Origin: Candidatus Zhuqueibacterota bacterium
GTDB lineage: Bacteria > Zhuqueibacterota > Zhuqueibacteria > Zhuqueibacterales > Geothermadaptataceae
Assembly: GCA_030950365.1 (NCBI GenBank)
Contig: JAUZRQ010000043.1
Coordinates: 1-64,000 of the forward strand
Reading direction: 5' to 3'
Length of the DNA stretch: 64,000 nt
The notes below the pieces were generated by a model. It searched no databases. It saw nothing but the letters and a program-made list of their open reading frames with translations, and was not told where the DNA came from. Below are positions 16,420 to 32,977 of the stretch, piece by piece. How positions within the stretch are numbered: position 1 is the stretch's first letter; each line of letters opens with the position of its first letter. The translations under genes and the position numbers were made by a program.

Positions 16420-16976
16420 AGTCTATCCTCCAGCAGACAGAGCAAATGATGAAAGGTCTCCTCTTTCGTCCAGCCATCTTTGCATTCCAGCGTCAGATCA
16501 GCCTGCATGTAAAAGGGCTCGCGCTCGGCCAGCAAGGCGCGGATGAAGCTCAGCGGATCGCCCGGCGGCGCCTGCCGCAGAAGCGGCCGGGTGGTATCGT
16601 GACGCAATTGCACCAGCAACTGCTCCGGAGAACGTTTAATATACACGGTGAGGCCGGATTCTCTCAGATAGGACCAGGCCTGCGGCCGTGCCGGAGTGCC
16701 ACCGCCCAGGGCCACCACCCGCCCCTGCAATTTCGATACGCTTTTCAGGGCCTCGAGCTCGAGCTGGCGGAAATACGGCTCGCCATATTTGGCGAAAATA
16801 TCGGCGATGGTCATGCCCTGCTCGCCTTCGATGAGCACATCGATATCGACGAACGGCCATTCGAGCATCTCGGCAAGCCGCGCGCCAAGGTGCGTTTTGC
16901 CGCTGCCCATGAATCCCAAAAGATAAATGTTTTTATCCGCCGTGGCTTTCAAGATGGGCGATTCTCGTTCAACCAT
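16416..16976 (-). CDS. aroK: Shikimate kinase
   Basis: 186 residues, standard length. It phosphorylates shikimate with ATP in the cytosol. The P-loop is GFMGSGKTHLG near residue 21. VDIDVLIEGEQGMTIADIFAKYGEPYFRQLELEAL carries the shikimate-binding Asp and Arg, and VVALGGGTPARP is the GGG motif. The lid region has the arginine in TTRPLLR. Its stop overlaps the aroQ start in an ATGA, so the two are translationally coupled. The 160-base gap to aroC holds a small dyad, AGATACC and GGTATCT (17053-17078). Confidence 0.95.
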   Translation of the reverse strand: MVERESPILKATADKNIYLLGFMGSGKTHLGARLAEMLEWPFVDIDVLIEGEQGMTIADIFAKYGEPYFRQLELEALKSVSKLQGRVVALGGGTPARPQAWSYLRESGLTVYIKRSPEQLLVQLRHDTTRPLLRQAPPGDPLSFIRALLAEREPFYMQADLTLECKDGWTKEETFHHLLCLLEDRL

Positions 16977-17137: not shown

Positions 17138-18331
17138 TCAGCGCTGGCGGACGTATTCCTGCCAGGCATCATAACGCGTCCGAATTTCGTTCAGCGAATC
17201 GCCGCCGAATTTTTCCAGCACGGCGTCGGCCAGTACCAGGGCCATCATGGCCTCGCCAATAACGCTGGCGGCGGGCACCGCGCACACATCCGAGCGCTCT
17301 CGGTGTGCCGCTACCGGAGCTTTGCTTACGATGTCCACGGACTGCAGTGGTTGCATCAGCGTGGCAATGGGCTTCATGGCCACACGCACCACGATGGGCA
17401 TGCCGTTGGAAATCCCACCTTCGATGCCGCCGGCGTGGTTGTGGTTGCGCGCGAACTGACGCCGATCGGCATCGTAAAATATTTCATCGTGCACCTCGGA
17501 GCCAAACCGGCAGGCGCCGCCTAAGCCATCGCCAATCTCCACCCCTTTCATGGCTTGAATACTCATCATCGCCATGGCCAGACGCGCGTCCAGACGACGG
17601 TCCCACTGCACATGGCTGCCAAGACCGACCGGCACGTTGTAAGCCACCACCTCAAAAATGCCGCCCACCGTATCACGATTGGCTTTGGCTTGATCAATGC
17701 GCGCCATCATCGCCTGTTCTGCCTCATGGTCCAGACAGCGCACCGGCGACATATCGGCGCGGGCGTTGAGCTCGTTCAGCGGCAGGGTCCACTCCGGTTT
17801 GCCATAGTCGATGAGCGAATACGGGCTGCGCACATCCGCCAGTTGCACCACGTGGCTGGCAATGCCGATGCCGAGCTGCTGCAGAAACTGTCGGGCCAGC
17901 GCGCCCAGCGCCACGCGCGTGGCGGTTTCTCTTGCCGAAGCGCGTTCCAGGATATTGCGCATGTCGCGCTGTTGATATTTGATCGCGCCGGCGAGGTCGG
18001 CGTGACCGGGCCGCGGCACGGTGACGCGTTTGGCGCCGGTGTCCTCGCCTTCTACGGGCATGATCGTGTGCCAGTTTTTGAAATCGCGGTTTTCGATCAT
18101 CAGGCTGATGGGACTACCGAGGGTGTGGCCGAAGCGCACGCCGGACAGAACGCGCGCCCGGTCTTTTTCGATGCGCATGCGACCGCCGCGGCCATAGCCC
18201 TGCTGCCGCCGCGCCAGTTCGTGATTAATGGCATCCACCGATATCGGCACATCGGCGGGCATGCCTTCGAGGATACCCACCAACGCCTGTCCATGCGACT
18301 CGCCGGCGGTGCGGAATGTCAATCGGGTCAT
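17138..18331 (-). CDS. aroC: Chorismate synthase
   Basis: About 397 residues. It makes chorismate from EPSP, needing reduced FMN. The start MTRLTFRTAGESHGQALVGILEGMPADVPI is the canonical family N-terminus. GYGRGGRMRIEKDRA, HADLAGAIKYQQRDMRNILERASARETATRVA and HNHAGGIEGGISNGMPIVVRVAMKPI follow. I place the start at the ATG at 18331, though an ATG directly before it (18334) is equally possible. A longer frame from 18400 adds a basic stretch without homology. No clear ribosome binding site is visible. Upstream is a spacer of about 420 bases with double-hairpin repeats, so aroC-aroK-aroQ-AhpD may be a separate transcript. Confidence 0.95.
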   Translation of the reverse strand: MTRLTFRTAGESHGQALVGILEGMPADVPISVDAINHELARRQQGYGRGGRMRIEKDRARVLSGVRFGHTLGSPISLMIENRDFKNWHTIMPVEGEDTGAKRVTVPRPGHADLAGAIKYQQRDMRNILERASARETATRVALGALARQFLQQLGIGIASHVVQLADVRSPYSLIDYGKPEWTLPLNELNARADMSPVRCLDHEAEQAMMARIDQAKANRDTVGGIFEVVAYNVPVGLGSHVQWDRRLDARLAMAMMSIQAMKGVEIGDGLGGACRFGSEVHDEIFYDADRRQFARNHNHAGGIEGGISNGMPIVVRVAMKPIATLMQPLQSVDIVSKAPVAAHRERSDVCAVPAASVIGEAMMALVLADAVLEKFGGDSLNEIRTRYDAWQEYVRQR

Positions 18332-18753
18332 CATGTTTTTTATATTGGTGAAAGTGAGTTGGTGAATGAATTTTATGCGAAACTTTATGGAAAAACGCAA
18401 TCCAAAATCGTCATATAACCTGAATTTCTATTTTTTGTCACACAATCACATACCAGCGAACTCTTTCCCGATCCCACACCGTCTCTGACGGTGTTTCATG
18501 GCAAATACTCAAGAAATACACGGTCCCAGACCGTATAGGATCATTTCGCCCCAAAACTGTATTTATCCATTGCCCGGGAAATCCAATTCACAAATTTTCT
18601 CATCCGCGTTCCATCCGCGTCCATCCGTGGCTCAAACCAACCATGCTAATCTGTGCTAATCAGTGTAATCTGTGGTTCCCAATCCAGCACCATCTCCGAC
18701 GGTATTTCCAATGTACCGACCTCAAGAAATACACGATCACAGACCGTGTAGGA
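18332..18753. repeat. aroE-aroC spacer with two double-hairpin elements
   Basis: No gene. The spacer holds two copies of the double-hairpin element (18470-18542 and 18682-18755, the second touching the aroE stop). Between them is a block of phrases of the type CGTTCCATCCGCGTCCATCC and GCTAATCAGTGTAATCTGTGG (18605-18680). Confidence 0.7.
18470..18542. repeat. Double-hairpin repeat element, copy 2 (best copy)
   Basis: 73 bp. The left half is GATCCC followed by ACACCGTC-TCT-GACGGTGT, a perfect 8-bp hairpin. The middle is TTCATGGCAAATACTCAAGAAAT. The right half is ACACGGTC-CCA-GACCGTAT followed by AGGATC. The two hairpins differ by a matched C/G exchange in both arms, so each keeps its own pairing. 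Confidence 0.8.
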
Positions 18754-18755
18754 TC
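18682..18755. repeat. Double-hairpin repeat element, copy 3
   Basis: 74 bp with the same order as copy 2: CACCATCTCCGACGGTAT, a middle ending CTCAAGAAAT, then ACACGATC-ACA-GACCGTGT and AGGATC. It ends at the aroE stop codon, so the last two bases overlap the gene. Confidence 0.75.
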
Positions 18756-19635
18756 ATGGTGTCGTTCCGTGATTACCGAAAGTATCCCGGCCCATCAGAA
18801 TAGACACGAGATGCTCCCGCAGCGGCTGATAAAACTCCGCCGCATTGAACTCCCGTTCCAGCCAGACTTCCAGCGAACGCACGCCCTGAAAAATCAGCAT
18901 GCCCAGGCCATCCACCGTAGCGGCGCCGGTTGTCTGCGCCATTTGCAAAAAACGCGTGCGCAGCGGATTGTACACCAGATCCACATACACGCAATCCGGG
19001 CGGAACAGCAGCTCCGGCAACGGACTCGCCTCAACGTCCGGCGCCATCCCCACCCGCGTGGCGTTGATCACCAGGCTGCCCGCCGGCAGTTCCATCGCTT
19101 GCTCCAGCCCGGCCACATCACCGCCAAAAGCCGCCGCCAGGGTTTCGGCACGCTCTCGCGTTCGATTATAAATAAGCAACGCTTGCGCTTCCGCCTGCTG
19201 CACCGCCCGGCACACCGCCCGCGCCGCGCCGCCGGCACCCAGCACCAACACCGTTCGCCCGCGCATCCCGACGCCGCTTTCCCGCAGGCTTTGCAAAAAG
19301 CCCGCGGCATCGGTATTCGTGCCCAGCAGCCTGCCCTTCCGGAACACAATGGTGTTCACCGCGCCGATGGCCTGCGCCTCTGCATCAATCTCATCCAGCC
19401 AGCGCATGACGGCCTGCTTGTGCGGCAGGGTCACGTTCAAGCCGGCGACTCCCAGCGCCCGCGCGCCCAGCAGCGCCATCTCGAGCTGCTCCGCTGGCAC
19501 TCGAAACGCATGGTAACAGTACGGCAAATCGTATTCTTGGATCAGAAATCGGTGCAACGTCGGAGACAACGAGTGGGCAATGGGATCGCCAATGACGCCC
19601 AGAAGGCCGGTCTTGCTCGAGGTCGGCATGCTCAC
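18754..19635 (-). CDS. aroE: Shikimate dehydrogenase (NADP)
   Basis: 293 residues. It reduces 3-dehydroshikimate to shikimate. LGVIGDPIAHSLSPTLHRFLI binds the substrate, LNVTLPHKQAVMRWLDEIDAEAQAIGAVNT carries the catalytic Lys and Asp, and VLVLGAGGAARAVCRAV is the dinucleotide loop. The block YNRTRERAE, with basic residues after the second strand, fits NADP use. The start ATG overlaps the aroA stop by four bases. The C-terminus is about 15 residues longer than usual and polar. Confidence 0.95.
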   Translation of the reverse strand: MSMPTSSKTGLLGVIGDPIAHSLSPTLHRFLIQEYDLPYCYHAFRVPAEQLEMALLGARALGVAGLNVTLPHKQAVMRWLDEIDAEAQAIGAVNTIVFRKGRLLGTNTDAAGFLQSLRESGVGMRGRTVLVLGAGGAARAVCRAVQQAEAQALLIYNRTRERAETLAAAFGGDVAGLEQAMELPAGSLVINATRVGMAPDVEASPLPELLFRPDCVYVDLVYNPLRTRFLQMAQTTGAATVDGLGMLIFQGVRSLEVWLEREFNAAEFYQPLREHLVSILMGRDTFGNHGTTP

Positions 19636-20936
19636 CCCACAACGCTTGCAAGCCGTTCAAAAAATCCCGGGAAACTGATATCGGCCGCGGCAATATTCTC
19701 GATGATGGTCTCGCCCGCGGCGATCAGCCCGGCCACAGCAAAGGCCATCACGATGCGGTGATCGCCGTGGGAATCCACCACCGCGCCACGCAGGGCCGCC
19801 GGCCCCTGGATGCGCAAGCCATCTTTCAGCTCTTCCACACGCGCGCCCATGCGGCTCAGGTTGATCGCCACTGCGCGCAGCCGGTCGGATTCCTTCACGC
19901 GCAACTCTGCAGCATCCCGGATGACCGTCTCGCCATTAGCCTGAGTGGCCAAAACTGCCAGAATAGGAATCTCGTCGATAAGCAGTGGAATTTCGCTGCC
20001 GCGGATCTCCGCGCCGGTCAGTTCGCTGCTTTCGACTTCGAGATCGGCCACCGCCTCCCCATGGAGGTCGCGGTGGTTGTGCCAGTGGAGCACCGCCCCC
20101 ATCTCTTTTAGCTTTTGCAGAAAATAAGCCCGGGTTGGATTCACGCCGAGGTTGAGCAATTTCAGCCGCGCCTTCGGCACCAGCAGCGCCGCGGCGATGA
20201 AAAACGCCGCCGAAGACAAATCCCCCGGAATCTCGAAATCGCTCGCCTGCAATGCGGACGGCAGCACCGTGATGCGGCGCCCGTCCACCTCAACCGGCAC
20301 GCCCATGTGGCGCAGCATGATTTCGGTATGATTGCGGCTCTGCACCGGTTCGATGACCGTGGTGGGGCCATCCGCAAACAGGCCCGCCAGCAGCAAACAC
20401 GATTTCACCTGCGCCGAGGCCACCGGCAGCTCGTGCTGCATGCCGCGAAGCCGTCCGCCGAAAATTGTAAGCGGCGCGAAGCCACCATCATGCGCTTCGA
20501 TCCCTGCGCCCATACGCTGCAGCGGCTTGATAATGCGCCGCATGGGCCGCCTGCGCAAACTGCCATCGCCGTCGATTTGCGACCGGAATGGCTGCCCGGC
20601 GAGAATACCGCTCAGTAGCCGCATGGTGGTGCCGGAGTTGCCGGCATCCAGCGGGCTTGCGGCCGGATGCAATCCTCGCAGCCCAACGCCGTTGACGATC
20701 AGCCGGCCGTTGTCGGCCGTCATGGGCACGCCCAACGCTTCAAGACAGGTGCGCGTGCTGTGCACATCCTCGCCGGGCGCCAGGCCCAGGATCGTGCTTT
20801 CGCCTTCGGCAAGGGCAGCAAGCATGAGCGCGCGGTGAGAAATGGATTTATCTCCCGGCATGCTCAGGGTGCCCCGCAATTGTGCGGCTCTTTGGATCTT
20901 TGCACGCTGGCCTTTGACCTGGATGATGCTCGACAC
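19632..20936 (-). CDS. aroA: 3-Phosphoshikimate 1-carboxyvinyltransferase (EPSP synthase)
   Basis: 434 residues. It joins shikimate-3-phosphate and PEP. LRGTLSMPGDKSISHRALMLAALAEGES has the substrate lysine, LDAGNSGTTMRLLSGILAGQPF is the second signature, DGSLRRRPMRRIIKPLQRMGA the arginine block, and LRVKESDRLRAVAINLSRMGA plus DHRIVMAFAVAGL the last ones. The first motif has GNSGTTMR rather than the classic GNAGTAMR; whether this alters glyphosate sensitivity I cannot tell. The start codon reads as GTG, five bases after tyrA, and the end overlaps aroE. Confidence 0.95.
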   Translation of the reverse strand: MSSIIQVKGQRAKIQRAAQLRGTLSMPGDKSISHRALMLAALAEGESTILGLAPGEDVHSTRTCLEALGVPMTADNGRLIVNGVGLRGLHPAASPLDAGNSGTTMRLLSGILAGQPFRSQIDGDGSLRRRPMRRIIKPLQRMGAGIEAHDGGFAPLTIFGGRLRGMQHELPVASAQVKSCLLLAGLFADGPTTVIEPVQSRNHTEIMLRHMGVPVEVDGRRITVLPSALQASDFEIPGDLSSAAFFIAAALLVPKARLKLLNLGVNPTRAYFLQKLKEMGAVLHWHNHRDLHGEAVADLEVESSELTGAEIRGSEIPLLIDEIPILAVLATQANGETVIRDAAELRVKESDRLRAVAINLSRMGARVEELKDGLRIQGPAALRGAVVDSHGDHRIVMAFAVAGLIAAGETIIENIAAADISFPGFFERLASVVG

Positions 20937-20941
20937 GGTTG

Positions 20942-22084
20942 CTACCTCGTCTGACAGTGAAATCCACGTCCTCGCAGCAGCTCCATCGCCCTTTGCCTCT
21001 CGGATTGGGACGCAAATGCCAGTCTCAGGGTGCCGCCTTCGTTTTCACGCACTTTCAGCACTTCAATATCCTTGATGTTGATATCCGCCTCGGCCAGGGT
21101 GGTGGCGATGGCCGCAATGATGCCCGGCCGATCTTCGACTTCTACGGAAATATCGAAATGAGGATTCAAAAATCCGCGCGTGTCGGTGGGGATCGAAAGG
21201 CGGCTTTTGGCTGCGTTTTCGAAATCGGCTTCCAGCTCGCCGCGCTGCAGCCGCTGCTCCATCTCGCGCAGGTAATCCACAAAGCCCTGCATTTCATTCT
21301 GGATCGGCCCGTAATTGCTATCGAGAATGTCCTTCCAGATGGTGTACGGACTGGATGCAATGCGCGTCATGTCACGGAAACCGCCGGCGGCCATTTTCAG
21401 ATACAGCGGGTTATCGCGGTTTTTCTCGGCCACGAAATTCATCAGCGCCACGGCCAGAAGTTGGGGCAGGTGGCTCACCGCCGCCGCGATGCGGTCATGC
21501 GTGGCGGCGTCAATGAGCACGGGATGCGCGCCGAGATCGGCGACGAATCCGGCCAGCGCCTGCACGGCCTCGGGCGGGGTATCGCTCCCGGGGGTCAGTA
21601 CGTACAGCGCATTTTGAAACAGAAACGGATCGGCGTTGGCCAATCCCGGTTTCTCAGCCCCCGCCATGGGATGCCCGCCAATGAACACCGGCACCCCGTG
21701 GCGAAACAGCTCCGATGCCATGCTAACAATATCGGTCTTCACACTGCATACATCAGTGAGGATCGCCGCCCCGGGGGCGCTCTCAGCCAAATCGAGCAGC
21801 ACGCGGCGTGCCGCGGCAACAGGCGTGGCGATGACAATCAGATCGGCCTGTTCACAGGCTTGGGGCAACTCCTCGGGGGCGAACGCCGCATCCACCATTT
21901 GCTGCTCCAGTGCCATCGTCGTGACTTCGGGGAAATCCACGCCGCTCAAGTGCGTTTGCGGACGAAAGCGCCGCACGGCCCGGCACAGAGACCCGCCGAT
22001 CAAACCAAGCCCGATGATGGTGACGTGGGTCAACAGGGGCATGGTTGTTTGATTGTCTTGCATGAATCCCGTGTTGCTGGTCAT
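20942..22084 (-). CDS. tyrA: Prephenate dehydrogenase with C-terminal ACT domain
   Basis: 380 residues. It converts prephenate to 4-hydroxyphenylpyruvate, the step to tyrosine. The NAD loop is VTIIGLGLIGGSLCRAV, then DVCSVKTDIV, FIGGHPMAGAEKPG and ATHDRIAAAVSHLPQLLAVAL with the catalytic His. Residues about 305-375 form an ACT domain (FDISVEVEDRPGIIAAIATTLAEADINIKDIEVLKV), the usual site for tyrosine or other amino-acid feedback. Start choice is open: the ATG at 22084 adds about 14 residues before the family N-terminus MPLLTHVTIIG. It is followed after five bases by aroA. Confidence 0.93.
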   Translation of the reverse strand: MTSNTGFMQDNQTTMPLLTHVTIIGLGLIGGSLCRAVRRFRPQTHLSGVDFPEVTTMALEQQMVDAAFAPEELPQACEQADLIVIATPVAAARRVLLDLAESAPGAAILTDVCSVKTDIVSMASELFRHGVPVFIGGHPMAGAEKPGLANADPFLFQNALYVLTPGSDTPPEAVQALAGFVADLGAHPVLIDAATHDRIAAAVSHLPQLLAVALMNFVAEKNRDNPLYLKMAAGGFRDMTRIASSPYTIWKDILDSNYGPIQNEMQGFVDYLREMEQRLQRGELEADFENAAKSRLSIPTDTRGFLNPHFDISVEVEDRPGIIAAIATTLAEADINIKDIEVLKVRENEGGTLRLAFASQSERQRAMELLRGRGFHCQTR

Positions 22085-22394: not shown

Positions 22395-23378
22395 TTATCC
22401 CAATCCGATTTTTTCTTTCACCCGGTTCACCGTTCGTTCGGCAATGGGTCGAACCTTGTCGGCGTTTTCTTTAAGCAGATTCTCGATATATGCCGGATCA
22501 CGGGTAATTTCGGCATAACGCTTCTGCACCGGCGCCAGCCCTTCGATGACCACTTCAGATAGCTCGCGTTTCAAATCGGCGTAGCCCTTGCCCTCGAAAT
22601 GCGCTTCGATCTCTTCCTGACTCTTTTGTGTGAACAGTTGATAAATCACCAGCAGGTTGTTCACACCCGGACGGTTTTCATCAAACCGGATTTCGCGCAA
22701 CGAATCGGTGGTGGCCCGGGCAATTTTTTTGCGGATGGCATCCGGTTCATCCAGCAAATGAATGGACGCGTCGGCATGCTCATCGCTTTTGCTCATTTTT
22801 TTTGTCGGCTCCTTGAGGCTCATGATGCGAGCGCCCACCTTCGGGATAAACGGCTCAGGCACTTTGAACACGTCGCCGTACATGGAATTCATACGCTCGG
22901 CCACATCGCGCGTCAGCTCGATGTGCTGCTTCTGATCTGCGCCCACCGGGACGATATCCGAATCATACAGCAGAATATCCGCGGCCATGAGCGCGGGATA
23001 ATCGAACAGGCCCACACTTACCTGCTCTTTCTGTTTGGCCGATTTTTCTTTGAACTGGGTCATGCGCTGCATCCAGCCCATGGGGATATAGCAATTGAGA
23101 ATCCACGCCAGTTCGGCATGTTCCTTGACATGTGACTGCACGAAAAGCACCGATTTCTCCATGTCGATACCGCAAGCCAGTAGCAGCCCGGCCAGCTCGC
23201 GGATTTTGGTGTGCAGGGTCTTCGGATCCTGCGGCACGGTGATAGCATGCAAATCCACAATGCAAAATATGTTGTCAAACTCATCCTGTGAGGCCACCCA
23301 GTTGCGGATAGCGCCCAGGTAATTGCCGATATGAATATGTCCCGTTGGCTGAATTCCAGAAAACACGCGCTTCTTCAT
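22395..23378 (-). CDS. trpS: Tryptophanyl-tRNA synthetase
   Basis: 327 residues of a class I aminoacyl-tRNA synthetase charging tRNA-Trp in the cytosol. [27 protein letters not shown] contains the HIGH-type motif (HIHIGN), [20 protein letters not shown] is the ATP/Trp-site block and TKKMSKSD the KMSKS loop. The ATG at 23378 follows GAGGAGG; an ATG four codons upstream (23390) is also possible. Its presence inside the aromatic cluster fits shared control with tryptophan synthesis, since the charged-tRNA level is what the trp attenuator measures. Confidence 0.95.
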
Positions 23379-23482
23379 GATCCTCCTCATCGTAGATCGT
23401 GGTTATGTCGCATTGTGAATGTTTCTCAACAGCAAATTCATTGTGCTTGTCGCAGGGCCGACCATTTCGCCAGGAGCTCGAA

Positions 23483-24535
23483 TTAGCCGGCGGCCAGGGC
23501 TTTAGCCGGTGGCAGTCGCAGGTCCATCTTTTTACCTATGGCCTGTGAAATGATCTGGCATTCCTGCATCAGCTTTTCGAACTGCGCCGGGTACAGAGAC
23601 TGCGGCCCGTCGGACAGGGCATTCTCCGGGTCGTGGTGCACCTCGATGATCAGGCCATGCGCACCCGCCGCCACCGCGGCCCGGGCCATCGGCGCCACCT
23701 TGTCGCGAATGCCGGTGCCGTGGCTGGGATCGGCGATCACCGGAAGATGGCTCAGCTTCTGAAACACCGGGATAGCGGAAATGTCCATGGTGTTGCGGGT
23801 GTAATTTTCAAACGTGCGGATGCCCCGCTCACACAGAATCACCTCGTAATTGCCGCCTGCCATGATGTACTCGGCCGACAACAGGGTTTCCTCGATGGTC
23901 GCGGCCATGCCGCGCTTGAGCAGCACCGGCTTGCGTACGCGGCCCAGCGCTTTGAGCAGGTCGTAATTTTGCATGTTGCGCGCGCCCACCTGCAAAATAT
24001 CGGCGTATTCCATCACCAGCGGCACCTTGTTTTTATCCATCACTTCGGACACCACCAGCAGGCCGTATCGATCGGCAGCTTCACGCAGCATGCGCAGGCC
24101 CTTTTCTCCGAGTCCCTGAAACGAATACGGCGAGGTGCGCGGTTTGAAAGCCCCTCCGCGCAGCACTTTCGCGCCGGCGCGTTTCACCGCCGCGGCGATG
24201 GTATCGATCTGCTCTTCGGATTCCACCGAGCACGGCCCGGCCATCACCACCACTTCATCGCCGCCGATCACCACGTCCTTGATGCGGATAATCGTGTCTT
24301 CGGGATGAAACGTCCGGCCCGCCAGCTTGTACGGCTCGGTGATACGCAGCACTTCGTACACGCCTTCCATCACCTCGATGGTGCGCGGATCAACACCGCG
24401 CTTATCACCAATGGCGCCGATGATGGTTTTGCTCACCCCGGTGGATCGGTGCACATCGAAATTCATGTTCACCAAACGGGCAATCACCTTCTGAATCTGT
24501 TCTTCGGTTGCATTTTCTTTCATGACGACCACCAT
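23483..24535 (-). CDS. aroF: 3-Deoxy-7-phosphoheptulonate (DAHP) synthase, type I beta with N-terminal regulatory domain
   Basis: 350 residues. It condenses PEP and erythrose-4-phosphate, the entry step of the shikimate route. Residues 1-70 are the ferredoxin-like regulatory domain ([29 protein letters not shown] by type) of the Thermotoga-type enzymes, where it gives Phe/Tyr inhibition. The barrel has [69 protein letters not shown] and [10 protein letters not shown], all catalytic blocks. AAGGAGG sits 8 bases before the ATG. It lies 12 bases after a separate chorismate mutase gene; the two often form a feedback complex or a fusion in other bacteria. Confidence 0.95.
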
Positions 24536-24547
24536 GTTTATCCTCCT

Positions 24548-24856
24548 TCACTCCGGCTTCGATTTTCTACGATTTGGGAGGGCCAGGATGATATCCTTTT
24601 CCAGATGCCGCGATTCATCGATGATGCGCTCGAAAAGGCGCTTCACGGCCTGCTGGGGCAATGGCCCCTGATTCAACCGCTGCAGTCGCTCAAAAATCTG
24701 CCGCTCCCGCTCGGGATCGTACACCGGCATTTTGCGCCGCTTTTTGATGCGACCGATCTCCATAGTGCACCTGGCCCGCTCATTGAGTAGTTGCAACAAC
24801 GCTTCGTCAATTTCGTCGATTTTCTGGCGCCAGTCGTCAATATCCAATTTTTTCAT
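24548..24856 (-). CDS. Chorismate mutase (AroQ-type, monofunctional)
   Basis: 102 residues, all helical. It rearranges chorismate to prephenate, feeding tyrosine and phenylalanine. WRQKIDEIDEALLQLLNERARCTMEIGRIKKRRKMPVYDPERERQIFERL contains the Arg in LNERA, the Lys in IGRIKK and the PVYDPERE block that form the active site of AroQ-fold mutases. The C-terminal helix has RLFERIIDESRHLE. It lies 12 bases before the DAHP synthase gene, so a shared allosteric complex is likely. No prephenate dehydratase is seen in the window. Confidence 0.9.
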   Translation of the reverse strand: MKKLDIDDWRQKIDEIDEALLQLLNERARCTMEIGRIKKRRKMPVYDPERERQIFERLQRLNQGPLPQQAVKRLFERIIDESRHLEKDIILALPNRRKSKPE

Positions 24857-25503
24857 AAAACGGGGTCTCTTTCACTGTCTATGTGTTTAGCGCAGCCCGG
24901 GCTGCAATCAGCCTGGGTGTACATGAATGGGTTTCTTATTCAAAACTTTGCAATTTACAAATTTTTTTGCTGGAAAGCATTAAAAATCACGCCTGTGTAA
25001 TGGTTTTTGCTGATGTTCCTTTCACGAATGACGCTTTGCTATGCATCAAAGAGGAGTTCACCACAAAGGTACAAAGTGCTCAAAGAAAAATCATCTTTTT
25101 AAAGACATAGCGCTTTATAATCGTAACTTTTCAGTTCATTTCGTTTGATGAAATCTTGCCCGTCATCGCGAGCAGCCGCCGGAAGGCGGGTGCGCCTGTC
25201 CGACTGCTGGCGGAAGCCGATCTGTTTGCAATTATAACAATGAGATCGCGTCGTCGCTCCGCTCCTCGCGATGACGGGTATGAGACTGAACAGTTGCTTA
25301 ATCAGCGCTAATCAGTGAAATCTCTGGTTTTGCTTGAATGGCACTCTCCTCATCGACCCAACACCGTTTCCGAACGGTATTTTGGGGCTGGCAAAAGCGT
25401 TCACCATAAAGAGCACAGAGGGCGACAACAATCCGCGAACATCCGTGTCCATCCGTGGCTCATCATTACCATCCAGCCGCCACCATCCACTCAAACAGCC
25501 CGA
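24857..25503. repeat. trpA-chorismate mutase spacer with several repeat families
   Basis: No gene. From left to right: AT-rich sequence (24940-25020), a CACAAAGGTACAAAGTGCTCAAAG block (25055-25090), the MITE-like element copy 2 (25123-25297), an AATCAGTGAAATCTCTGG phrase (25308-25330), a left half of the double-hairpin element (25354-25381, ACACCGTTTCCGAACGGTAT), and AACATCCGTGTCCATCCGTGGCTC (25438-25463). Such a spacer inside the aromatic cluster probably separates two transcripts. Confidence 0.65.
25123..25297. repeat. MITE-like dispersed element, copy 2
   Basis: 175 bp bounded by GTAACTTTTCAG and CTGAACAGTTGC. The inside carries TCATCGCGAGCAGCCGCC and GAGATCGCGTCGTCGCTCCG. It is nearly colinear with the reverse complement of 3605-3758. 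Confidence 0.75.
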
Positions 25504-26307
25504 TCACTCCTCCGAAAGCGCCGCACGCATGGCGGCAACGAAGTGCCGCACCCGCCGGATCGCTTCATAGGGATGCCCCGCAGCTTCGATCTCCCGGATC
25601 ACCGCGCTGCCCACGATCACGCCGTCGCAGTACCGGGTGAGCCGCCGGGCCATTTCGGGACCGGACACGCCGAATCCCACCAGCACGGACTTCGTGGTCT
25701 GCTCCCGCAACCGCTGCAGAAACTGCCGCGTGCTGTCCGGCAACCGGTCGCGCGCGCCGGTCACTCCGGTCACCGAAACCGCATACACAAATCCGCTGGA
25801 CTGCCGGTTGATGCGCTCGATGCGGTGCGGTGGCGTGTTCGGCGACACCAGATGGATCCAGTCCAATTCCAGTTCCGCCGCCCGGCGCAGGAGGTCGGCG
25901 CTCTCCTCCGGCGGCAGGTCGGGAACGATAAAGCCATTGGCGCCAGCGGCCCGGGCCTCGCGGAACAGCGTATCCCAGCCGAATCGCATGAACGGATTGG
26001 CATAGCCCATGAGAATCACCGGTACCTGCGGCTGCGCCTGTCGGAAGCGCGCCAACAGGTCGAGGCTTCCGGCTACGGTGGTTCCGGCTTGCAGCGCCCG
26101 CTGCGACGCCGCCTGGATGGTCGGCCCATCCGCCAGGGGATCGCTGAACGGCACGCCCAGCTCGATCACATCCGCGCCGGCCTCGGCGATGGCCTGCATT
26201 AGCGGCACCGTGGCCTCTGGCTGTGGAAAACCGGCCGTTATATAAATAGAAAGAATTTTCTGACCTTCGCGCAAACGGGCCTCGATAGCGGTGGACAACC
26301 GGCTCAT
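25504..26307 (-). CDS. trpA: Tryptophan synthase alpha subunit
   Basis: 267 residues. It cleaves indole-3-glycerol phosphate to indole in the alpha-beta complex. [55 protein letters not shown] has the catalytic Glu and Asp ([14 protein letters not shown]), with [20 protein letters not shown] and [13 protein letters not shown] downstream. The ATG at 26307 overlaps the trpB stop (ATGA) with GGAGGGA upstream. A longer frame from 26373 is only a read into trpB. Confidence 0.96.
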
Positions 26308-27527
26308 ATTCGTCCCTCCGCCATGGCACCAGCCACCGTTTGCATGTCCTTGTCGCCGCGCCCGGAAAGGCAAATGACGATGGAATGATCTTTCGGCAAT
26401 TGCGGCGCCAGCTTCATGGCCTCGGCCACAGCGTGCGCGCTTTCCAGCGCGGGAATGATGCCTTCGGTGCGTGACAGAAACGCGGTCGCCTCCAGCGCTT
26501 CCTGATCGGTCACCGAGGTGTAGCGCACCCGGCCACGATCATGCAAAAACGCGTGCTCCGGCCCCACGCCCGGGTAGTCCAGCCCGGCGGAAATCGAATG
26601 CACCGGACTGATCTGGCCGTCGTCGTCCTGCAGCAGGTAGGTCATCATGCCGTGCAAAATACCCGGCGCGCCATACGACAGCGTGGCGGCGTGCTGCCCC
26701 GGACCGCTGCCAAAGCCGCCCGCTTCCACACCGACAAGCTGCACCGCCTCATCCTGCAAAAATGGATAAAACATGCCCATAGCGTTGGAGCCGCCACCGA
26801 CGCAGGCGATGACCGTGTCCGGCAGCCGGCCTTCCAGCGCCAGATGCTGCTCACGGGTTTCGCGGCCAATCACCGATTGAAAATCGCGCACCATCTGCGG
26901 ATAGGGATGCGGCCCCACCACCGAACCGATACAGTAAAACGTGTCCTGCACATGGGTCACCCAATCGCGGATGGCCTCGTTGATGGCGTCTTTGAGGGTG
27001 CGGCTACCGGTCTCCACCGGCACCACACGCGCGCCGAGGAGCTGCATGCGGAACACGTTCAACTTCTGCCGCTCGATGTCCTCAGAGCCCATGTACACGA
27101 TGCACTCCAGTCCGAACTTTGCCGCTACCGTGGCCGTGGCCACGCCGTGCTGCCCGGCGCCAGTTTCGGCAATAATACGCCGCTTGCCCATGCGCCTCGC
27201 CAGCAAAAGCTGGCCGATCACATTGTTGATTTTGTGCGCGCCAGTGTGGTTCAAATCTTCGCGCTTTAGATAAATGCGCGCGCCTTCCAACGCCTTGCTC
27301 AGCCGGTCGGCGCGGGTGAGCGGATTCGGCCGGCCGGCGTATTCGCGCAAATAATGTTTAAATTCGCTTTGAAACTCCGGATCCTGCCGGGCCTCGGCGT
27401 AGGCCCGCTCCAGTTCTTCGAGCGCCGGCATCAGAATTTCCGGCACCAGTTTGCCGCCATACGCGCCGAACCGGCCGCGCGCATCAGGCAATTGGGAAAA
27501 CCGGACGGTCTGTTCGCTGCCAATCAC
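26304..27527 (-). CDS. trpB: Tryptophan synthase beta subunit
   Basis: 407 residues. A PLP enzyme joining indole and serine to tryptophan. [20 protein letters not shown] opens the TrpB1 class. [28 protein letters not shown] carries the PLP lysine, [17 protein letters not shown] the substrate loop, [15 protein letters not shown] the phosphate loop and [10 protein letters not shown] the C-terminal serine of the PLP ring site. It overlaps trpF by 44 bases with an apparent GTG start, and trpA by 4 bases. Confidence 0.96.
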
Positions 27528-28149
27528 GTCGTACCTTTCTCAGTTGTTGAAACAGTTCGTGCAATTTGTTTGCATCTTTAACGCCCGGCGCCGATTCCAC
27601 GCCACTGTTCACATCCACGGCGTAGGGCCGGACGTCGTTAATAGCCTGCAAGATATTATCGGGGCCAAGGCCACCCGCCAGAATCAGCCGCAGGTCCTCC
27701 GGCAATTGTTTTGCATGCTGCCAGGCGAACGGCTGCCCCGTGCCGCCGTAAGCATCGCGGCGGTAGGTATCCAGCAGCATGGCATCGATGTGCCGGCGGT
27801 ACGGCTGCCATTGCTCGGGCAATATGTCGTTCCGCACTCGCACTACGCCGATGCGTTTGAAGTCGGACAACGCGCCGGCCGCTTCCGGGAGATATGGGCC
27901 ATGAAACTGAATGGCGTGCAGCGGCACCTCCCTGGCGATGCGCCGAATCGCCTCGGGCGGCGTATCCACAAACACGCCCACCCGGCACACCCCGGGCGGC
28001 AACTGGGCGCTGATTTCGGCCGCATGACCGGGCTCCACAAATCGCGGACTTTTGCGGTAAAAGATGAATCCCACTGCATCCGCGCCAAGGTCGACGGCGC
28101 GCCGGGCGTCCTCAAGCCGCGTGATGCCGCATATCTTCACTCGAACCAC
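27484..28149 (-). CDS. trpF: Phosphoribosylanthranilate isomerase
   Basis: 221 residues. An Amadori-type isomerization between TrpD and TrpC steps. [35 protein letters not shown] gives the catalytic Cys, [12 protein letters not shown] and [10 protein letters not shown] follow. [42 protein letters not shown] gives the Asp and phosphate site. The start looks like GTG with GGAG before it. It overlaps trpC by 38 bases and trpB by 44, so translation is tightly coupled. Confidence 0.95.
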
Positions 28150-28936
28150 GATTAAACTCCTCGAGCAGTTGTTTCAGAGCCTCGCCCGGATGCTCCGCGC
28201 GCATGAAATGCGTGCCAATCAGCACGGCGTGCACCCCGGCATCGCGCATGCGGCGCAGGTCTCCGGCCGAATGGATGCCGCTTTCGGCCACCAGCAGCGT
28301 GTCCCTGCCGGCCAGCGGCGCCAGTTTTTCGGTCACAGCCAGATCAACCCGGAACGTGCGCAAATCCCGGTTGTTGATGCCGATGATGCGCGCGCCGGCG
28401 GCCTGCGCCTGTTCCAGCTCGGCTTCGTTATGCGCTTCCACCAGCGCCTGCATGCCGAGGTCGTGTACCAGTTGCAAAAACGCTGTGAGCTCATCGCGGC
28501 TCAGGATGGCGGCGATGAGCAGCACTGCGTCCGCGCCGAACGCCCGCGCCTCGAGAATTTGATACGGATCGACAATAAAATCCTTGCGCAGAATGGGCAC
28601 CGACACCTGACTGCGAATCTGCCGGATGTGCTGAATCGATCCCTGAAAAAAGCGTTCATCGGTGAGCACGGAGAGCGCGCTGGCGCCGGCCTGCATGTAA
28701 TCACGGGCGATATCCAGCGGCGAAAACGCCTCACGGATGACGCCCTCGGAGGGCGAGGCTTTTTTCATCTCCGCAATGATCGCCAGACCGCTTTTTTGCA
28801 GGGCACGGTCCAGCGGCAGCGGCGGTTCGACCCCGCGAATCATGTGCTCGAGATCCGTGGGCTTCAGGAATTGCCGGTGCTGCTGCAGCACGTTTTGTTT
28901 GTGGGCGATGATTTTTTCGAGAAACCGATTGTGCAT
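28112..28936 (-). CDS. trpC: Indole-3-glycerol phosphate synthase
   Basis: 274 residues. It closes the indole ring with loss of CO2. IIAEMKKASPSEGVIREAFSPLDIARDYMQAGASALSVLTDERFFQGS, PILRKDFIVDPYQILEARAFGADAVLLIAAIL, ALVEAHNEAELEQA, IIGINNRDLRTFRVDL and VAESGIHSAGDLRRMRDAGVHAVLIGTHFM are the family blocks, with catalytic Lys and Glu all present. It begins the trpC-F-B-A unit; 620 bases of repeats lie between it and trpGD upstream. Confidence 0.96.
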   Translation of the reverse strand: MHNRFLEKIIAHKQNVLQQHRQFLKPTDLEHMIRGVEPPLPLDRALQKSGLAIIAEMKKASPSEGVIREAFSPLDIARDYMQAGASALSVLTDERFFQGSIQHIRQIRSQVSVPILRKDFIVDPYQILEARAFGADAVLLIAAILSRDELTAFLQLVHDLGMQALVEAHNEAELEQAQAAGARIIGINNRDLRTFRVDLAVTEKLAPLAGRDTLLVAESGIHSAGDLRRMRDAGVHAVLIGTHFMRAEHPGEALKQLLEEFNRGSSEDMRHHAA

Positions 28937-29557
28937 AACGGCTGCCTGGTTTGTTGTAAAAATTGGTGTAAGGCTTTGGGCAAATTACCTCAAAGGCGTT
29001 AAAAATGAATTCACCACAAAGACACAAAGAGCACAAAGAAAGACGGCCTTTTCATTTACCATCATCAGTGTCAATCAGTGTAATCAGTGGTTCCATTCAA
29101 ATTGCTCCACGCCACTCATCCAATCCAGCACCGTCTCCAACGCGAGCTATGGATTATAAAAAAATCGTTTTCATCACGAAGAGCGCGAAGGACACGAAGA
29201 AAAAGCCGTTTGAATTCCTAATTCTTCGTGAACTTCGTGGCCTTCGTGGTTCATAAAACTTTCTACTAAATCGACAATTCACCACAAAGACACAAAGAGC
29301 ACCAAGAGCAAAAACAATCCGTGCTCATCCACGTTAATCCGTGGCTCATCATTTTCAACCTCTCTCCCACCTCGATCAAGTCTTCAGAAAATGCGGAAAA
29401 AGCGTTCACCACGAAGAACATGAAGGTCACGAAGAAAAAGCGTTTGCATTCTTCTTTTGTGTCTTTGTGGTTATAATCTATCTCAACCCAGGGCTTACAT
29501 TCTCTCTGTGAACTCTGCGCCTCAGCGAGAGACTCTGATTTCTGAGACCTCTCGCCG
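28937..29557. repeat. trpGD-trpC spacer dense in iterated repeats
   Basis: No gene. Blocks of the type TTCACCACAAAGACACAAAGAG recur at about 29007-29046 and 29278-29312. At 29176-29256 CACGAAGAGCGCGAAGGACA faces TTCGTGAACTTCGTGGCC and can fold back on it. Further CACGAAGAAC and GTGTCTTTGTGG copies lie at 29408-29475, GTGTCAATCAGTGTAATCAGTG at 29070, and a left half of the double-hairpin element at 29123-29146. It ends in CTCTGCGCCTCAGCGAGAG. Its base pattern shows short quasi-periodic iteration. Confidence 0.7.
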
Positions 29558-31204
29558 TTAGGCCGCCAGCCGCTGCGTGAACTGTCGCAGTGCGTTCAAC
29601 TTTTGCAACGCCGCGCCGGAATCGATGCTCTCAGCGGCCATGACTGCCGCCTCACGCAGGTCCTCTGCCAGTCCCGCCACATAAATCCCAGCCGCCGCGT
29701 TGGCAATTACGATGTCCCTGGCTGGGCCTTTTTCACCGGAGAGAATGCGCTCGGCAATAACCGCATTGGCCTCGGCATCGCCGCCAGCCAGCCCATCCGC
29801 CGACGCCGGGAGTCCGAAATCTGCGGCAGTGAGCGTGTACTCGCGAATCTCGCCATGCACCAGCTCGGCCACGTGCGTCTGGCCGGCCAGCGAAATCTCA
29901 TCCATCCCCTCTTCGCTGTGCACCAGCAACACGTGCTCCGCCTCCAATTGCTGTAATACTTCCGCCAGCAGCCGCAGCAGTTTGCGGTCGTACACGCCAA
30001 TGAGCTGCCGCCGCACACCGGCCGGATTGGTGATGGGCCCGAGGATATTGAACACCGTACGCACGCCCAGCTCGCGGCGCGGACCAATGGCATGCTTCAT
30101 GGCGCCGTGCAATTTCGGCGCAAACAGAAAGGCCAGTCCCACCTCCTCCAGGCACCGCGACATTGCCTCGGGCTCGAGATCGATCTGCACGCCCAGCGCC
30201 TTCAGCACATCCGCGCTGCCGCTTTTACTGGATACGCTGCGGTTGCCGTGCTTGGCCACCGGCACGCCCGCGCCTGCGGCCACAAACGTGGCCACGGTAG
30301 AAATGTTAAACGTATGCTTGCCATCGCCGCCGGTGCCGCAAAGATCGATGGTATTCGGCTGCGGCATGCGCACGCGCGCGGCTTTCTCGCGCATCGACGC
30401 CGCAAAGCCCGCGATTTCGGCCGGTGTCTCGCCTTTCATGCTCAGGGCTACCAGAAAACCTCCGATTTGCGCCGGTGTGGCCTGCCCGTTCATGATGCAG
30501 TTCATCGCCTCGTAGGCCTCCCGCCGGTCCAGGTTCTGCCCGGCCAGCACTTTGCCGATCATTGGCTGCAACATGACACTCTCCCTCTTGTTTGCAAATG
30601 ACGGTTGATTCTGCGTTCGCGTAGCGGGCGTTTTCACATAATAATCCAGAAAATTGCGCAACAGGGTTCTGCCGGCTTCCGTGAGCACCGACTCCGGATG
30701 AAACTGCACGCCCACCACGGGCAACGATTGGTGCTCGAGGCCCATGATCAGCCCGGAATCCGTGCGCGAAGTCACGCGCAGGTGCTCGGGCAGGCTTGCT
30801 TCCTCCACGATCAGTGAGTGGTAACGCGTGGCCGGAAACGGATTGGGCAATCCGGCATACACGCCGTGCCCGTCGTGATGGATGGCGCTGATCTTGCCGT
30901 GCATGAGCTCCGGCGCCCGCACCACGCGCCCGCCGAACGCTTCGGCAATGGCCTGGTGGCCGAGACACACGCCCAGAATCGGGATGCGACCGGCAAATTC
31001 GGTGATCGCCGCAAGGGTGATGCCGGCGTTGCGCGGCACGCCCGGTCCGGGCGAAATAACGATGGCATCTGGCGCCATCTCGGCAATTGTTTGCAAAGAA
31101 ATGGCATTGTTGCGGTTCACAACCACCTCGACGCCCAGCTCGCCAAAATACTGGGCCAGGTTGTAGGTGAAACTATCGAAATTGTCGATGATGAGAATCT
31201 TCAT
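29558..31204 (-). CDS. trpGD: Anthranilate synthase glutaminase fused to anthranilate phosphoribosyltransferase (TrpG-TrpD)
   Basis: 548 residues with two enzymes. Residues 1-190 are the class I glutamine amidotransferase subunit of anthranilate synthase: NFDSFTYNLAQYF, ISPGPGVP, the nucleophile Cys80 in GVCLGHQ, and His169 with Glu171 in VQFHPES. Residues from about 213 are the phosphoribosyltransferase: MIGKVLAGQNLDRREAYEAMN, LCGTGGDGKHTFNIST (PRPP loop), KHGNRSVSSKSGSADVL and LGPITNPA. The same fusion occurs in enteric bacteria. The linker (191-210) is polar. An ATG at codon 211 (30574) has GAGGGAGAG upstream and could give a free TrpD, a likely relic of two adjoining genes. The gene starts 11 bases after trpE. 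Confidence 0.95.
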   Translation of the reverse strand: MKILIIDNFDSFTYNLAQYFGELGVEVVVNRNNAISLQTIAEMAPDAIVISPGPGVPRNAGITLAAITEFAGRIPILGVCLGHQAIAEAFGGRVVRAPELMHGKISAIHHDGHGVYAGLPNPFPATRYHSLIVEEASLPEHLRVTSRTDSGLIMGLEHQSLPVVGVQFHPESVLTEAGRTLLRNFLDYYVKTPATRTQNQPSFANKRESVMLQPMIGKVLAGQNLDRREAYEAMNCIMNGQATPAQIGGFLVALSMKGETPAEIAGFAASMREKAARVRMPQPNTIDLCGTGGDGKHTFNISTVATFVAAGAGVPVAKHGNRSVSSKSGSADVLKALGVQIDLEPEAMSRCLEEVGLAFLFAPKLHGAMKHAIGPRRELGVRTVFNILGPITNPAGVRRQLIGVYDRKLLRLLAEVLQQLEAEHVLLVHSEEGMDEISLAGQTHVAELVHGEIREYTLTAADFGLPASADGLAGGDAEANAVIAERILSGEKGPARDIVIANAAAGIYVAGLAEDLREAAVMAAESIDSGAALQKLNALRQFTQRLAA

Positions 31205-31215
31205 GGCACTCCCAC

Positions 31216-32703
31216 TTAAATGCCTTCAAATCCGCTTTCCGCCAGCGCAATGGCATGACGGATGGCGTTGCTTTTGTGAATGGTCTCTGCATATTCGCGC
31301 TCCGGGATGGAATCGGCCACGATGCCGGCCCCGGCCTGAAACCGCGCTGTACCGTTGTGAATTTCCAGCGTGCGAATGGCAATGCACGTATCCAGATTGC
31401 CGGAGAAATCCAGGTAGCCGAGGGCGCCGGCATACAGACCACGCGCTTCCGGCTCCAGCTCTTCGATGATTTCCATGGCGCGCACCTTCGGGGCGCCGGT
31501 CACCGTGCCGGCCGGGAAACAAGCCCGAAACGCATCGATGGCATCCAGACCATGGCGCAGCCGCCCGCGCACCTCGGAGACGATGTGCATCACGTGGCTG
31601 TATTTTTCGATGATCATGTTTTCCGATACGCGCACCTCACCGAAGCGCGCCACGCGTCCGATGTCGTTTCGGCCGAGGTCCACCAGCATCACGTGTTCGG
31701 CGCGCTCTTTTTCGTCCGCCAGCAGCTCGGCAGCCAGCCGGTCATCTTCTTCGGCATTGCGGCCGCGAGGCCGGGTGCCGGCAATGGGCCGCACCACGAC
31801 CTCGCCCTGCTCCACGCGCACCATCAACTCCGGACTGGAGCCGATGATGCTACGCTGGTTCTGCCGCAAAAAGTACATGTAAGGAGAAGGATTGATTAAC
31901 CGCAAAGCTCGGTAAACATCGAAAGGATCGGCCGCAACCGGCCTGGTAAATTTCTGCGAAAGAACGACCTGAAAGATATCGCCGGCCCGGATATAGTCTT
32001 TGGCCTGGCGCACGGCTTCGCAAAAATCGTCGCGCTGGAAATTGGCTACCACGTTGGCATGCACACTCTCGATTTCAGTCCGCGGCTCGGCTTCAAAAGG
32101 TGTTTTTAGCGCGGTGCGGGTCTCCTCGAGACGTTCCAGCGCCTGGGTGTAGCTCGTTTTCAAATCCGCGCCATCCTCGAGAAACACATTGGTGATGATG
32201 ATGATGCGATGCCGCAGATGATCAAACGCCAGGATGGTATCGTAAAAGCCGAATTCGGCCATGGGCGTATCTCCGGGCAGGGCGTGGCGGCCGGGCAGGG
32301 CTTCCAGCAACCGGACGGTGTCGTAGCCGAAATAGCCGACCATTCCGCCGGAAAACCGCGGCAATTCCGGATTGGGCACGAATTGGTATCGCCGCAGCCG
32401 GTTTTGCAAATAGGCAAAAATATCGGTTTCATGCGCATGCGTGGGACCGTCGGCCTGCTGCACTCGCACGCGCTGGCCGTCAAAGCGGATGACTTCCCGG
32501 GCATTGCGGCCGAGGAACGAAAATCGGGCCAGGGTCTCGCCGCCCTCCACCGATTCCAGCAAGAAGCCGTCACCCTGATGGCCGCACAGCCGCAGGAAGG
32601 CCGCCGCCGGGGTCAGCATATCGGCCAACAGCGAAGTGGCCACGGGAATTACATTGCCGTGCATGGCGAGTCGTTGAAATTCTGCAAAGGATGGTGGTTG
32701 CAT
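31216..32703 (-). CDS. trpE: Anthranilate synthase component I
   Basis: 495 residues. It makes anthranilate from chorismate with ammonia delivered by TrpG. The N-terminal feedback site has the LLES motif (residues 48-51, GDGFLLESVEGGETLARFSFLG by type), the tryptophan-binding element of the family. The chorismate domain has PIAGTRPRGRNAEEDDRLAAELLADEKERAEHVMLVDLGRNDIGRV, FPAGTVTGAPKVRAMEIIEELEPEARG and AGAGIVADSIPEREYAET. I chose the ATG at 32703, with AGGA 5 bases upstream and the family N-terminus at once. A longer frame upstream would run through the leader and attenuator. First structural gene after the attenuator. Confidence 0.97.
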   Translation of the reverse strand: MQPPSFAEFQRLAMHGNVIPVATSLLADMLTPAAAFLRLCGHQGDGFLLESVEGGETLARFSFLGRNAREVIRFDGQRVRVQQADGPTHAHETDIFAYLQNRLRRYQFVPNPELPRFSGGMVGYFGYDTVRLLEALPGRHALPGDTPMAEFGFYDTILAFDHLRHRIIIITNVFLEDGADLKTSYTQALERLEETRTALKTPFEAEPRTEIESVHANVVANFQRDDFCEAVRQAKDYIRAGDIFQVVLSQKFTRPVAADPFDVYRALRLINPSPYMYFLRQNQRSIIGSSPELMVRVEQGEVVVRPIAGTRPRGRNAEEDDRLAAELLADEKERAEHVMLVDLGRNDIGRVARFGEVRVSENMIIEKYSHVMHIVSEVRGRLRHGLDAIDAFRACFPAGTVTGAPKVRAMEIIEELEPEARGLYAGALGYLDFSGNLDTCIAIRTLEIHNGTARFQAGAGIVADSIPEREYAETIHKSNAIRHAIALAESGFEGI

Positions 32704-32723: not shown

Positions 32724-32761
32724 AAAAAAAAATCCCACCTCGCTTCATTGAGGTGGGATTT
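32724..32761 (-). terminator. Attenuator terminator of the trp genes
   Basis: On the minus strand AAATCCCACCTC and GAGGTGGGATTT pair over 12 bases around an 8-base loop, running straight into nine T. It lies about 20 bases before trpE and 37 after the leader-peptide stop. Its 5' arm is also part of a second possible pairing (the antiterminator). Confidence 0.9.
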
Positions 32762-32894
32762 CTATGTCTAAATGCTAAATTACGAAATTGACGAAACTTT
32801 AAGTTAATCCAGACATAGCCTTCCCACCTCTGGCGTAATAATAATACCAGTACCAAAACCAAAAACCGAAGTTCACGAAATAGGTGGAAAGGCT
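32750..32894 (-). promoter_or_regulatory. trp attenuator: competing RNA segments 1, 2 and 3
   Basis: Segment 1 (32882-32894, AGCCTTTCCACCT) pairs with segment 2 (32817-32829, AGGTGGGAAGGCT) over 13 bases with one G-U. Segment 2, extended to 32811-32830, also pairs with segment 3 (32750-32769) over 17 of 20 positions, and segment 3 contains the 5' arm of the terminator. The aromatic codons of the leader peptide lie between segments 1 and 2. A ribosome stalled on them would cover segment 1 and free segment 2 for segment 3, preventing the terminator. Confidence 0.85.
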
Positions 32895-32903
32895 GATTTT
32901 CAT
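32799..32903 (-). CDS. trpL: trp leader peptide rich in Trp, Phe and Tyr (34 residues)
   Basis: ATG at 32903, TAA at 32799-32801. The peptide begins MKISLSTYFVN and continues with the run FGFWFWYWYYYY (residues 12-23), then ARGGKAMSGLT. It holds three Trp, four Phe and six Tyr codons within residues 8-23. Its role would be to be translated in cis and report charging of the aromatic tRNAs, as for TrpL of enteric bacteria, not to act as a protein. A frame upstream of the ATG is open to 33002, but it begins before the predicted transcription start, so I use the 34-codon reading. No strong ribosome binding site precedes it. Confidence 0.88.
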   Translation of the reverse strand: MKISLSTYFVNFGFWFWYWYYYYARGGKAMSGLT

Positions 32904-32948
32904 GGTTTGTTTGCTGACGGTTGAATATTTGTACAAAAAATTTTGCGC

Positions 32949-32977
32949 AATATAAACAAAACGTCGTGTCTTGTCAA
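32949..32977 (-). promoter_or_regulatory. Sigma70-type promoter of the trp leader
   Basis: On the minus strand TTGACA (32972-32977) and TATATT (32949-32954) are separated by 17 bases. Start of transcription would fall near 32942, about 40 bases before the leader ATG, giving a leader RNA of about 220 bases to the terminator. Confidence 0.75.

Follow-up and report, generated by a model that had tools for sequence, protein, structure and literature searches.

Ahead of trpE in the window, by which we mean the whole 64,000-nucleotide stretch of DNA analysed here, lies what is very probably a ribosome-mediated attenuator that reads Trp, Tyr and Phe codons together and serves a fused trp-aro-tyr operon as an OR switch with three inputs. 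Computation recovers the parts of this element, the alternative pairings of its RNA, an antiterminator whose formation depends on where a ribosome stalls, the conservation of the arrangement in relatives and a match between leader codons and operon genes across the phylum. With moderate confidence, we place the switch within a modular system that spans the lineage: whenever operons fuse or divide, their leader codons are rewritten to match, the Phe and Tyr codons being removed after a split.

Leader Peptide and Promoter

The sequence-only reading that preceded this work had proposed a 34-codon leader peptide with three Trp, four Phe and six Tyr codons, behind a TTGACA-17-TATATT promoter. The minus strand carries this ORF exactly as described, down to the base, the aromatic count holds for codons 8-23, and a consensus scan located the promoter with 11 of 12 positions matched (Table 1). 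The promoter score is modest by itself, since a score of 11 also arose in 5 of 200 shuffled versions of that upstream region; a similar box stands at a similar place ahead of most relatives' leaders. What precedes trpE is a short ORF that can be translated and in which codons for the products of the operon cluster.

The core of the peptide, FGFWFWYWYYYY, is aromatic at 11 of its 12 residues and ranks first among the 95,324 twelve-residue stop-free windows in the six frames of the 64 kb; the next-best stretch elsewhere in the window reaches 7 of 12. A chance aromatic run was rejected as the source of the leader, the expected number of stop-free windows with at least 11 of 12 aromatic residues being about 5e-8 in the whole set. 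No clear Shine-Dalgarno sequence precedes the ATG of the leader (CAGCAAACAAACCATG), unlike the trpE start, which has GAGGA ahead of it. Elsewhere in the window, a Trp-rich frame, GWPFWWLRRWWWR, was seen at 60521-60566 on the plus strand.

Genes Downstream of the Leader

The cluster had been said to serve all three aromatic amino acids, and the genes bear this out: chorismate mutase (CM), DAHP synthase (DAHPS), trpS, tyrA and aro genes follow behind trpA, in the minus-strand order trpE-GD-C-F-B-A, chorismate mutase, DAHP synthase, trpS, tyrA, aroA-E-C-K-Q. A second PF00793 match in the genome was discarded as a DAHP synthase, being KdsA-like, 281 aa long and located beside CTP synthase. The trpS gene lies between DAHP synthase and tyrA in the window and was not found in the operon in the relatives examined. 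The products of trpE, trpGD and trpC (28112-32703; 1,317 residues) contain zero Trp, the figure for other long proteins of the window being about 1%.

Between trpA and chorismate mutase there is a gap of about 650 nt in this genome (24857-25503), where relatives have the two genes near-contiguous. No consensus promoter, terminator or second Phe/Tyr leader was found in this gap ahead of chorismate mutase. Given its length, the case for read-through into the aro half draws on the relatives in which the genes nearly touch. Repeated stretches resembling GTGCTCTTTGTGTCTTTGTGGTGAA occur in the long operon spacers 24857-25503 and 28937-29557, and perhaps represent a dispersed intergenic repeat that widened the gaps in this genome.

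The pheA gene of this genome sits away from the fused operon, and no Phe-rich ORF or Phe leader was found upstream of it. Among 18 genomes searched, 17 have pheA, apart from the fused operons. Phe-rich short ORFs were seen upstream of the free-standing pheA in family f7 (L120:4948-5076 and L121:5078-5143; SSFYFSFFFFGPRSGARR and RFFFFYFFGSEPGS), and are probably a pheA attenuator.

Table 1. Features of the leader region and of the operon behind it, in window coordinates.
Feature	Coordinates	Strand	Basis
Promoter TTGACA-17-TATATT	32949-32977	-	11/12 consensus match; similar box in most relatives with leaders
Leader ORF, 34 codons, MKISLSTYFVNFGFWFWYWYYYYARGGKAMSGLT	32799-32903	-	ATG 32903-32901, TAA 32801-32799; homologous leaders in relatives
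Regulatory codons 8-23, Y F V N F G F W F W Y W Y Y Y Y	32835-32882	-	codon count
Arm 1 (partner of arm 2 in the 1:2 protector stem; 32894-32882 with 32829-32817, 13 pairs)	32882-32894	-	folding; arm shuffles
Arm 2 (antiterminator 5' side; encodes RGGKAMS)	32811-32830	-	pairing; arm shuffles; compensatory changes
Arm 3 (antiterminator 3' side; 32830-32811 with 32769-32750; 32761-32750 = terminator 5' side)	32750-32769	-	17/20 pairs; compensatory changes
Arm 4 (32741-32730, pairing with 32761-32750) and T-run (32732-32724), intrinsic terminator, 12 pairs	32724-32741	-	pairing; relatives
trpE	31216-32703	-	TIGR00564 over cut-off
trpGD fusion	29558-31204	-	NF011201 over cut-off
trpC	28112-28936	-	profile annotation
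trpF	27484-28149	-	profile annotation
trpB	26304-27527	-	profile annotation
trpA	25504-26373	-	profile annotation
Chorismate mutase (type II, AroQ-class CM)	24548-24856	-	PF01817
DAHP synthase (DAHP_synth_Bsub)	23483-24535	-	sole class-I DAHP synthase found in genome
trpS	22395-23390	-	TIGR00233
tyrA (prephenate dehydrogenase, ACT domain)	20942-22084	-	sole one over Pfam cut-off in genome
aroA	19632-20936	-	profile annotation
aroE	18754-19635	-	profile annotation
aroC	17138-18400	-	profile annotation
aroK	16416-16976	-	profile annotation
aroQ (type II dehydroquinase), C-terminal GAF domain fused	15532-16419	-	last of aro cluster

Competing Stems and the Stalled Ribosome

A 13-bp stem 1:2, an antiterminator 2:3 with 17 of 20 pairs and a 12-bp terminator with nine T just before trpE had been claimed for the leader RNA. 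All were recovered at the positions of Table 1, the terminator with zero mismatches and with three of the nine T forming its last stem pairs, and folding of the leader RNA, proposed at the time as a check, confirms the competing 1:2, 2:3 and 3:4 pairings. An intrinsic terminator therefore stands between the leader ORF and trpE, together with a mutually exclusive antiterminator and protector, and these are kept in relatives. The folding energy of the leader RNA lies 4.5 sd under that of shuffles, none of 200 being equally good. Without a ribosome, 2:3 outranks 1:2 in stability (-33.9 vs -27.3 kcal/mol), so the ground state depends on 1:2 forming first.

A terminator-like match on the plus strand at 32739-32757 was dismissed as the same hairpin seen from the opposite strand. 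In the 64-kb window, Rfam returned no leader, T-box or riboswitch family at gathering score, and its eight weak matches, up to E = 5, included no leader-peptide family. The element gives no T-box match, and it departs from the classical Rfam Trp_leader, both by this search and in having control codons that are not Trp alone.

We modelled stalling by folding the RNA that lies in front of the ribosome, prior to synthesis of arm 4, with an assumed footprint of about 14 nt behind the P site and 11-14 nt ahead of the A site. When codons 8-20 occupy the A site, the part of the antiterminator in competition with the terminator has a probability of at least 0.98 of forming before arm 4; at codons 21-23 the probability of 2:3 drops, to an extent set by the assumed footprint, and from codon 24 through the stop it is 0. 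The permissive stall range includes Phe codons 9, 12, 14 and 16, Trp codons 15, 17 and 19 and Tyr codons 8, 18 and 20, so that each amino acid has codons able to relieve termination. Tyr codon 21 probably falls inside the range as well, and for a ribosome halted at the final one or two Tyr codons (22-23) the model predicts no antitermination. Once arm 4 is made, the terminator is favoured at equilibrium, which makes the decision a kinetic one, as in other attenuators. In folding, the position of the stall decides which stem forms.

Leader Codons Follow Gene Content Across the Phylum

Across 82 genomes of the phylum, the trp and aro clusters yielded 63 leaders, which fall into four classes; leaders were sought as aromatic-dense short ORFs, and Phe/Tyr-poor or leaderless cases are therefore under-counted.

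(i) Class A comprises 20 trp operons without CM-DAHPS-tyrA, whose leaders carry Trp codons, as a rule WWWW (means of 3.6 W, 0.8 F and 0.7 Y). It includes three operons (f5, f9, f11) with DAHP synthase but without CM or tyrA, and three of the trp-only leaders still carry 3-4 Phe+Tyr codons. That classic trp leaders have Trp only, as the earlier reading put it, is right for these sister operons.

(ii) Class B comprises 29 aro/tyr operons without trp genes, preceded by Phe/Tyr leaders with 0-1 Trp (mean W 0.1, F 3.6, Y 4.3), such as MFYFFYNYYFYFTCSGKG, MKGCFSDIFYFFYYYFLFRDRGGIGK and MNYHYYNFYYYYFYEPCGG. A Phe+Tyr attenuator on separate CM-DAHPS-tyrA-aro operons is apparently widespread in the phylum. 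Leaders of this class were seen at L105:6744-6800, L106, L107, L110, L155, L168, L186 and about 20 other loci. In f10, three genomes lack any TrpE domain, and the leaders of their aro operons are Phe/Tyr-only.

(iii) Class C comprises the 11 mixed leaders that stand before fused-lineage operons in f1, f7 and some of f2 (means of 2.9 W, 1.9 F and 3.7 Y), for example QYFWFWRFYYY, NFYWYFIWYYY, AYWFWYWYYY and RFYWSYWYW.

(iv) Class D comprises three mixed leaders of f3 (mean W 3.0, F 1.3, Y 2.7; HHWFWYWYYHISGG), ahead of an operon of the form CM-(TrpB-like)-DAHPS-tyrA-aro in which the TrpB-like gene is trpB_rel. The TrpE domain is absent from all three f3 genomes. These HHWFWYWYY leaders were seen at L178:1096-1191, L188:5588-5683 and L189:6555-6644.

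Trp codons match the presence or absence of trp genes in 63 of 63 leaders. Counted as family-and-class votes (24 units), the association gives Fisher p = 5e-7 for Trp and 8e-6 for Phe/Tyr, values that ignore deeper family kinship. Trp and Phe/Tyr codons occur together in all 11 fused-lineage leaders, and also in the three f3 leaders with the TrpB-like gene. Fused status was assigned by family for L046 and L048, whose contigs stop before CM, and the fusion is visible on a second contig of the genome for L044 and L041 (L180 and L181). No leader was seen ahead of trpE in L053, L054 or L048.

Among the mixed leaders, composition is kept and residue order is not (GFWFWYWYYYY, NFYWYFIWYYY, RFYWSYWYW, HHWFWYWYY). 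The pattern W-[FY]-W-[FY]-[FY] was rejected as a phylum-wide leader signature, being unspecific, with counts resembling those of a reversed-pattern control. Phe codons are uneven in the fused leaders, mostly 1-3, with 0 in L044 and 1 in L046, L047, L049 and L050. The attenuator reading stands in that the codon mix tracks gene content; it is qualified in that Tyr 22-23 stalls are predicted to be ineffective and in that Phe is thin in relatives.

Fusion, Reversal and Conservation of the Stems

On the TrpE tree the fused label needs two changes, against a mean of 11 when labels are shuffled. The tree places the gain of the fusion once, below f1 + f2 + f7 + f14, and its loss once, within f2 at genus g4. 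For f14 and some of the f7 rows, the fused label on this tree was taken from incomplete contigs or from family membership. The g4 genomes do not have the aro-tyr genes after trpA, and the two of their leaders that could be read are CWWRQWW and CSWGHWW; the fused sister genus g5 has RFYWSYWYW and RFNFWGYWYW. Two further g4 genomes have no leader ahead of trpE.

The proposed comparison with relatives found both the aromatic codons and the stems conserved. In f1, f7 and some of f2, the mixed leaders come with the 2:3, 1:2 and terminator pairings. The 2:3 pairing is equalled or beaten by just 0-11 of 300 arm shuffles in each of the 11 mixed leaders, and 1:2 by 0-15 of 300 in ten of them and by 63 of 300 in L051. 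Changes on both sides of a pair were found in 4 of 8 pairs of 2:3 (10 cells) and in 4 of 8 pairs of 3:4 (9 cells), counts that lean on the chosen register because the arms were aligned by hand; none of 500 shuffles reached these cell counts. Among close relatives, the TrpE of same-order genome G014 is 82% identical over the same residues, and a TrpE search of genome contigs returned a single close contig, from a KSB1 MAG, together with three remote contigs without a comparable leader.

Proposed Mechanism and Alternatives

When all three charged tRNAs are plentiful, the leading ribosome would reach the stop codon (32801) and cover or clear arm 2, whereupon arm 3 would pair with arm 4 and transcription would end before trpE. 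When the supply of tryptophanyl-, tyrosyl- or phenylalanyl-tRNA runs low, the leading ribosome would stall at one of codons 8 to about 21 and sequester arm 1; arm 2 would be freed, 2:3 would form before arm 4, and the polymerase would continue. We infer in this way that the leader is translated, that transcription terminates or reads through, and that each single tRNA elicits a response. An OR switch fits this operon because the sole class-I DAHP synthase and the common-pathway genes are needed whichever product runs short. As to its history, a trp operon whose leader had Trp codons may have joined once with an aro-tyr operon whose leader had Phe/Tyr codons, the two codon sets joining with them.

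It is possible, but in our view unlikely, that the leader has two inputs, Trp and Tyr, with Phe codons minor because Phe synthesis (pheA) is controlled elsewhere. Trp and Tyr codons occur in every fused leader and Phe codons number 0-1 in five, but the four Phe codons of the window leader all lie within the permissive stall range. Likewise, pheA stands apart from the fused operons and has its own Phe-rich ORF in f7, whereas the pheA of this genome has none upstream; Phe also requires DAHP synthase and chorismate mutase, which the fused operon supplies. Corynebacterium glutamicum AroR, as described in PMC11802643, sets a precedent for leader codon types that are not all sensed. We retain the three-input reading, in which Phe is the weakest of the inputs.

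That the element is an ordinary Trp attenuator, its Phe/Tyr codons being incidental, U-rich and serving to prevent structure in the loop that separates arm 1 from arm 2, seems quite improbable. Phe/Tyr codons are found in every fused leader and are few in the leaders of trp-only operons, even though those Trp-only sister leaders share the same layout. The lack of any Trp codon in trpE, trpGD and trpC looks as if tuned for Trp starvation, but separate aro-tyr operons bear Phe/Tyr-only leaders, and the split genus g4 lacks Phe/Tyr codons yet retains the attenuator. A signal residing in the peptide itself, either a TnaC-like aromatic nascent chain arresting the ribosome or a trans-acting peptide, is most improbable: the aromatic run does lie close to the end of a short ORF and trans roles are known for peTrpL (PMC7298713), but residue order is not conserved, composition follows gene content, and the leader has both an intrinsic terminator and stems that compete.

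Significance and Relation to Known Systems

Pooling Trp, Tyr and Phe in one leader solves a control problem, because the common pathway must run if any one product is short, and the three-input reading would achieve this pooled aromatic control in a single cis element, with no need of a regulatory protein. In the phylum, nature has run an experiment in which operon joining, separation and re-separation each come with a matching change of control codons, so that how cis-regulation keeps pace with operon rearrangement becomes directly testable. If the modular reading is true, leader composition is a readable record of the end products that an operon serves, and leader codons would be a simple predictor of operon function in uncultured phyla.

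Leader-peptide attenuation is textbook material. Leaders that read several amino acids belong mainly to branched-chain and aspartate-family operons, ilvGMEDA (Ile, Val, Leu) and thrABC (Thr, Ile) being examples, and the leader peptides of pheA and pheST carry Phe codons.

The trp leaders of E. coli (trpL) and of Actinobacteria (PMC1262725) resemble the window leader in having a promoter, an ORF with control codons and a protector, antiterminator and terminator before trpE. Known trp leaders carry Trp codons only, ahead of trp-only operons, whereas the window leader combines Trp, Tyr and Phe codons ahead of a trp-aro-tyr supraoperon; it also differs from trp leaders in placing its control codons between arms 1 and 2, with arm 2 inside the ORF. 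Enterobacterial pheA and pheST leaders follow the same attenuation principle but read Phe only (PMC11802643).

Among leaders on the common pathway, AroR of C. glutamicum attenuates the aroF (DAHP synthase) operon, as PMC11802643 relates from Neshat et al. 2014. Its codons are Phe-Tyr-Phe, and it responds to Phe, the availability of Tyr having no effect. It differs from the window leader in having no Trp codons and in coexisting with a separate trpL for the trp operon, and it is closer to the leaders on the stand-alone aro-tyr operons of the sister families. Attenuators were also predicted ahead of tyrA-containing supraoperons (PMC1173090, Table 7); these are large aromatic clusters too, but the passages on them do not analyse leader peptides or codon content, and the term 'leader' is absent from the text. 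The same paper mentions a trp-aro cluster in Desulfovibrio.

Like the window leader, those of ilvGMEDA, thrABC and the S. aureus ilv-leu operon, the last with Ile and Leu codons (PMC5794164), combine codons for several end products of a branched pathway, but these belong to the branched-chain and aspartate families and are not aromatic. A search of the open-access literature found no description of a single leader that combines Trp, Tyr and Phe. The mechanism is that of classical attenuation; within that literature, the proposed three-input aromatic variant is new.
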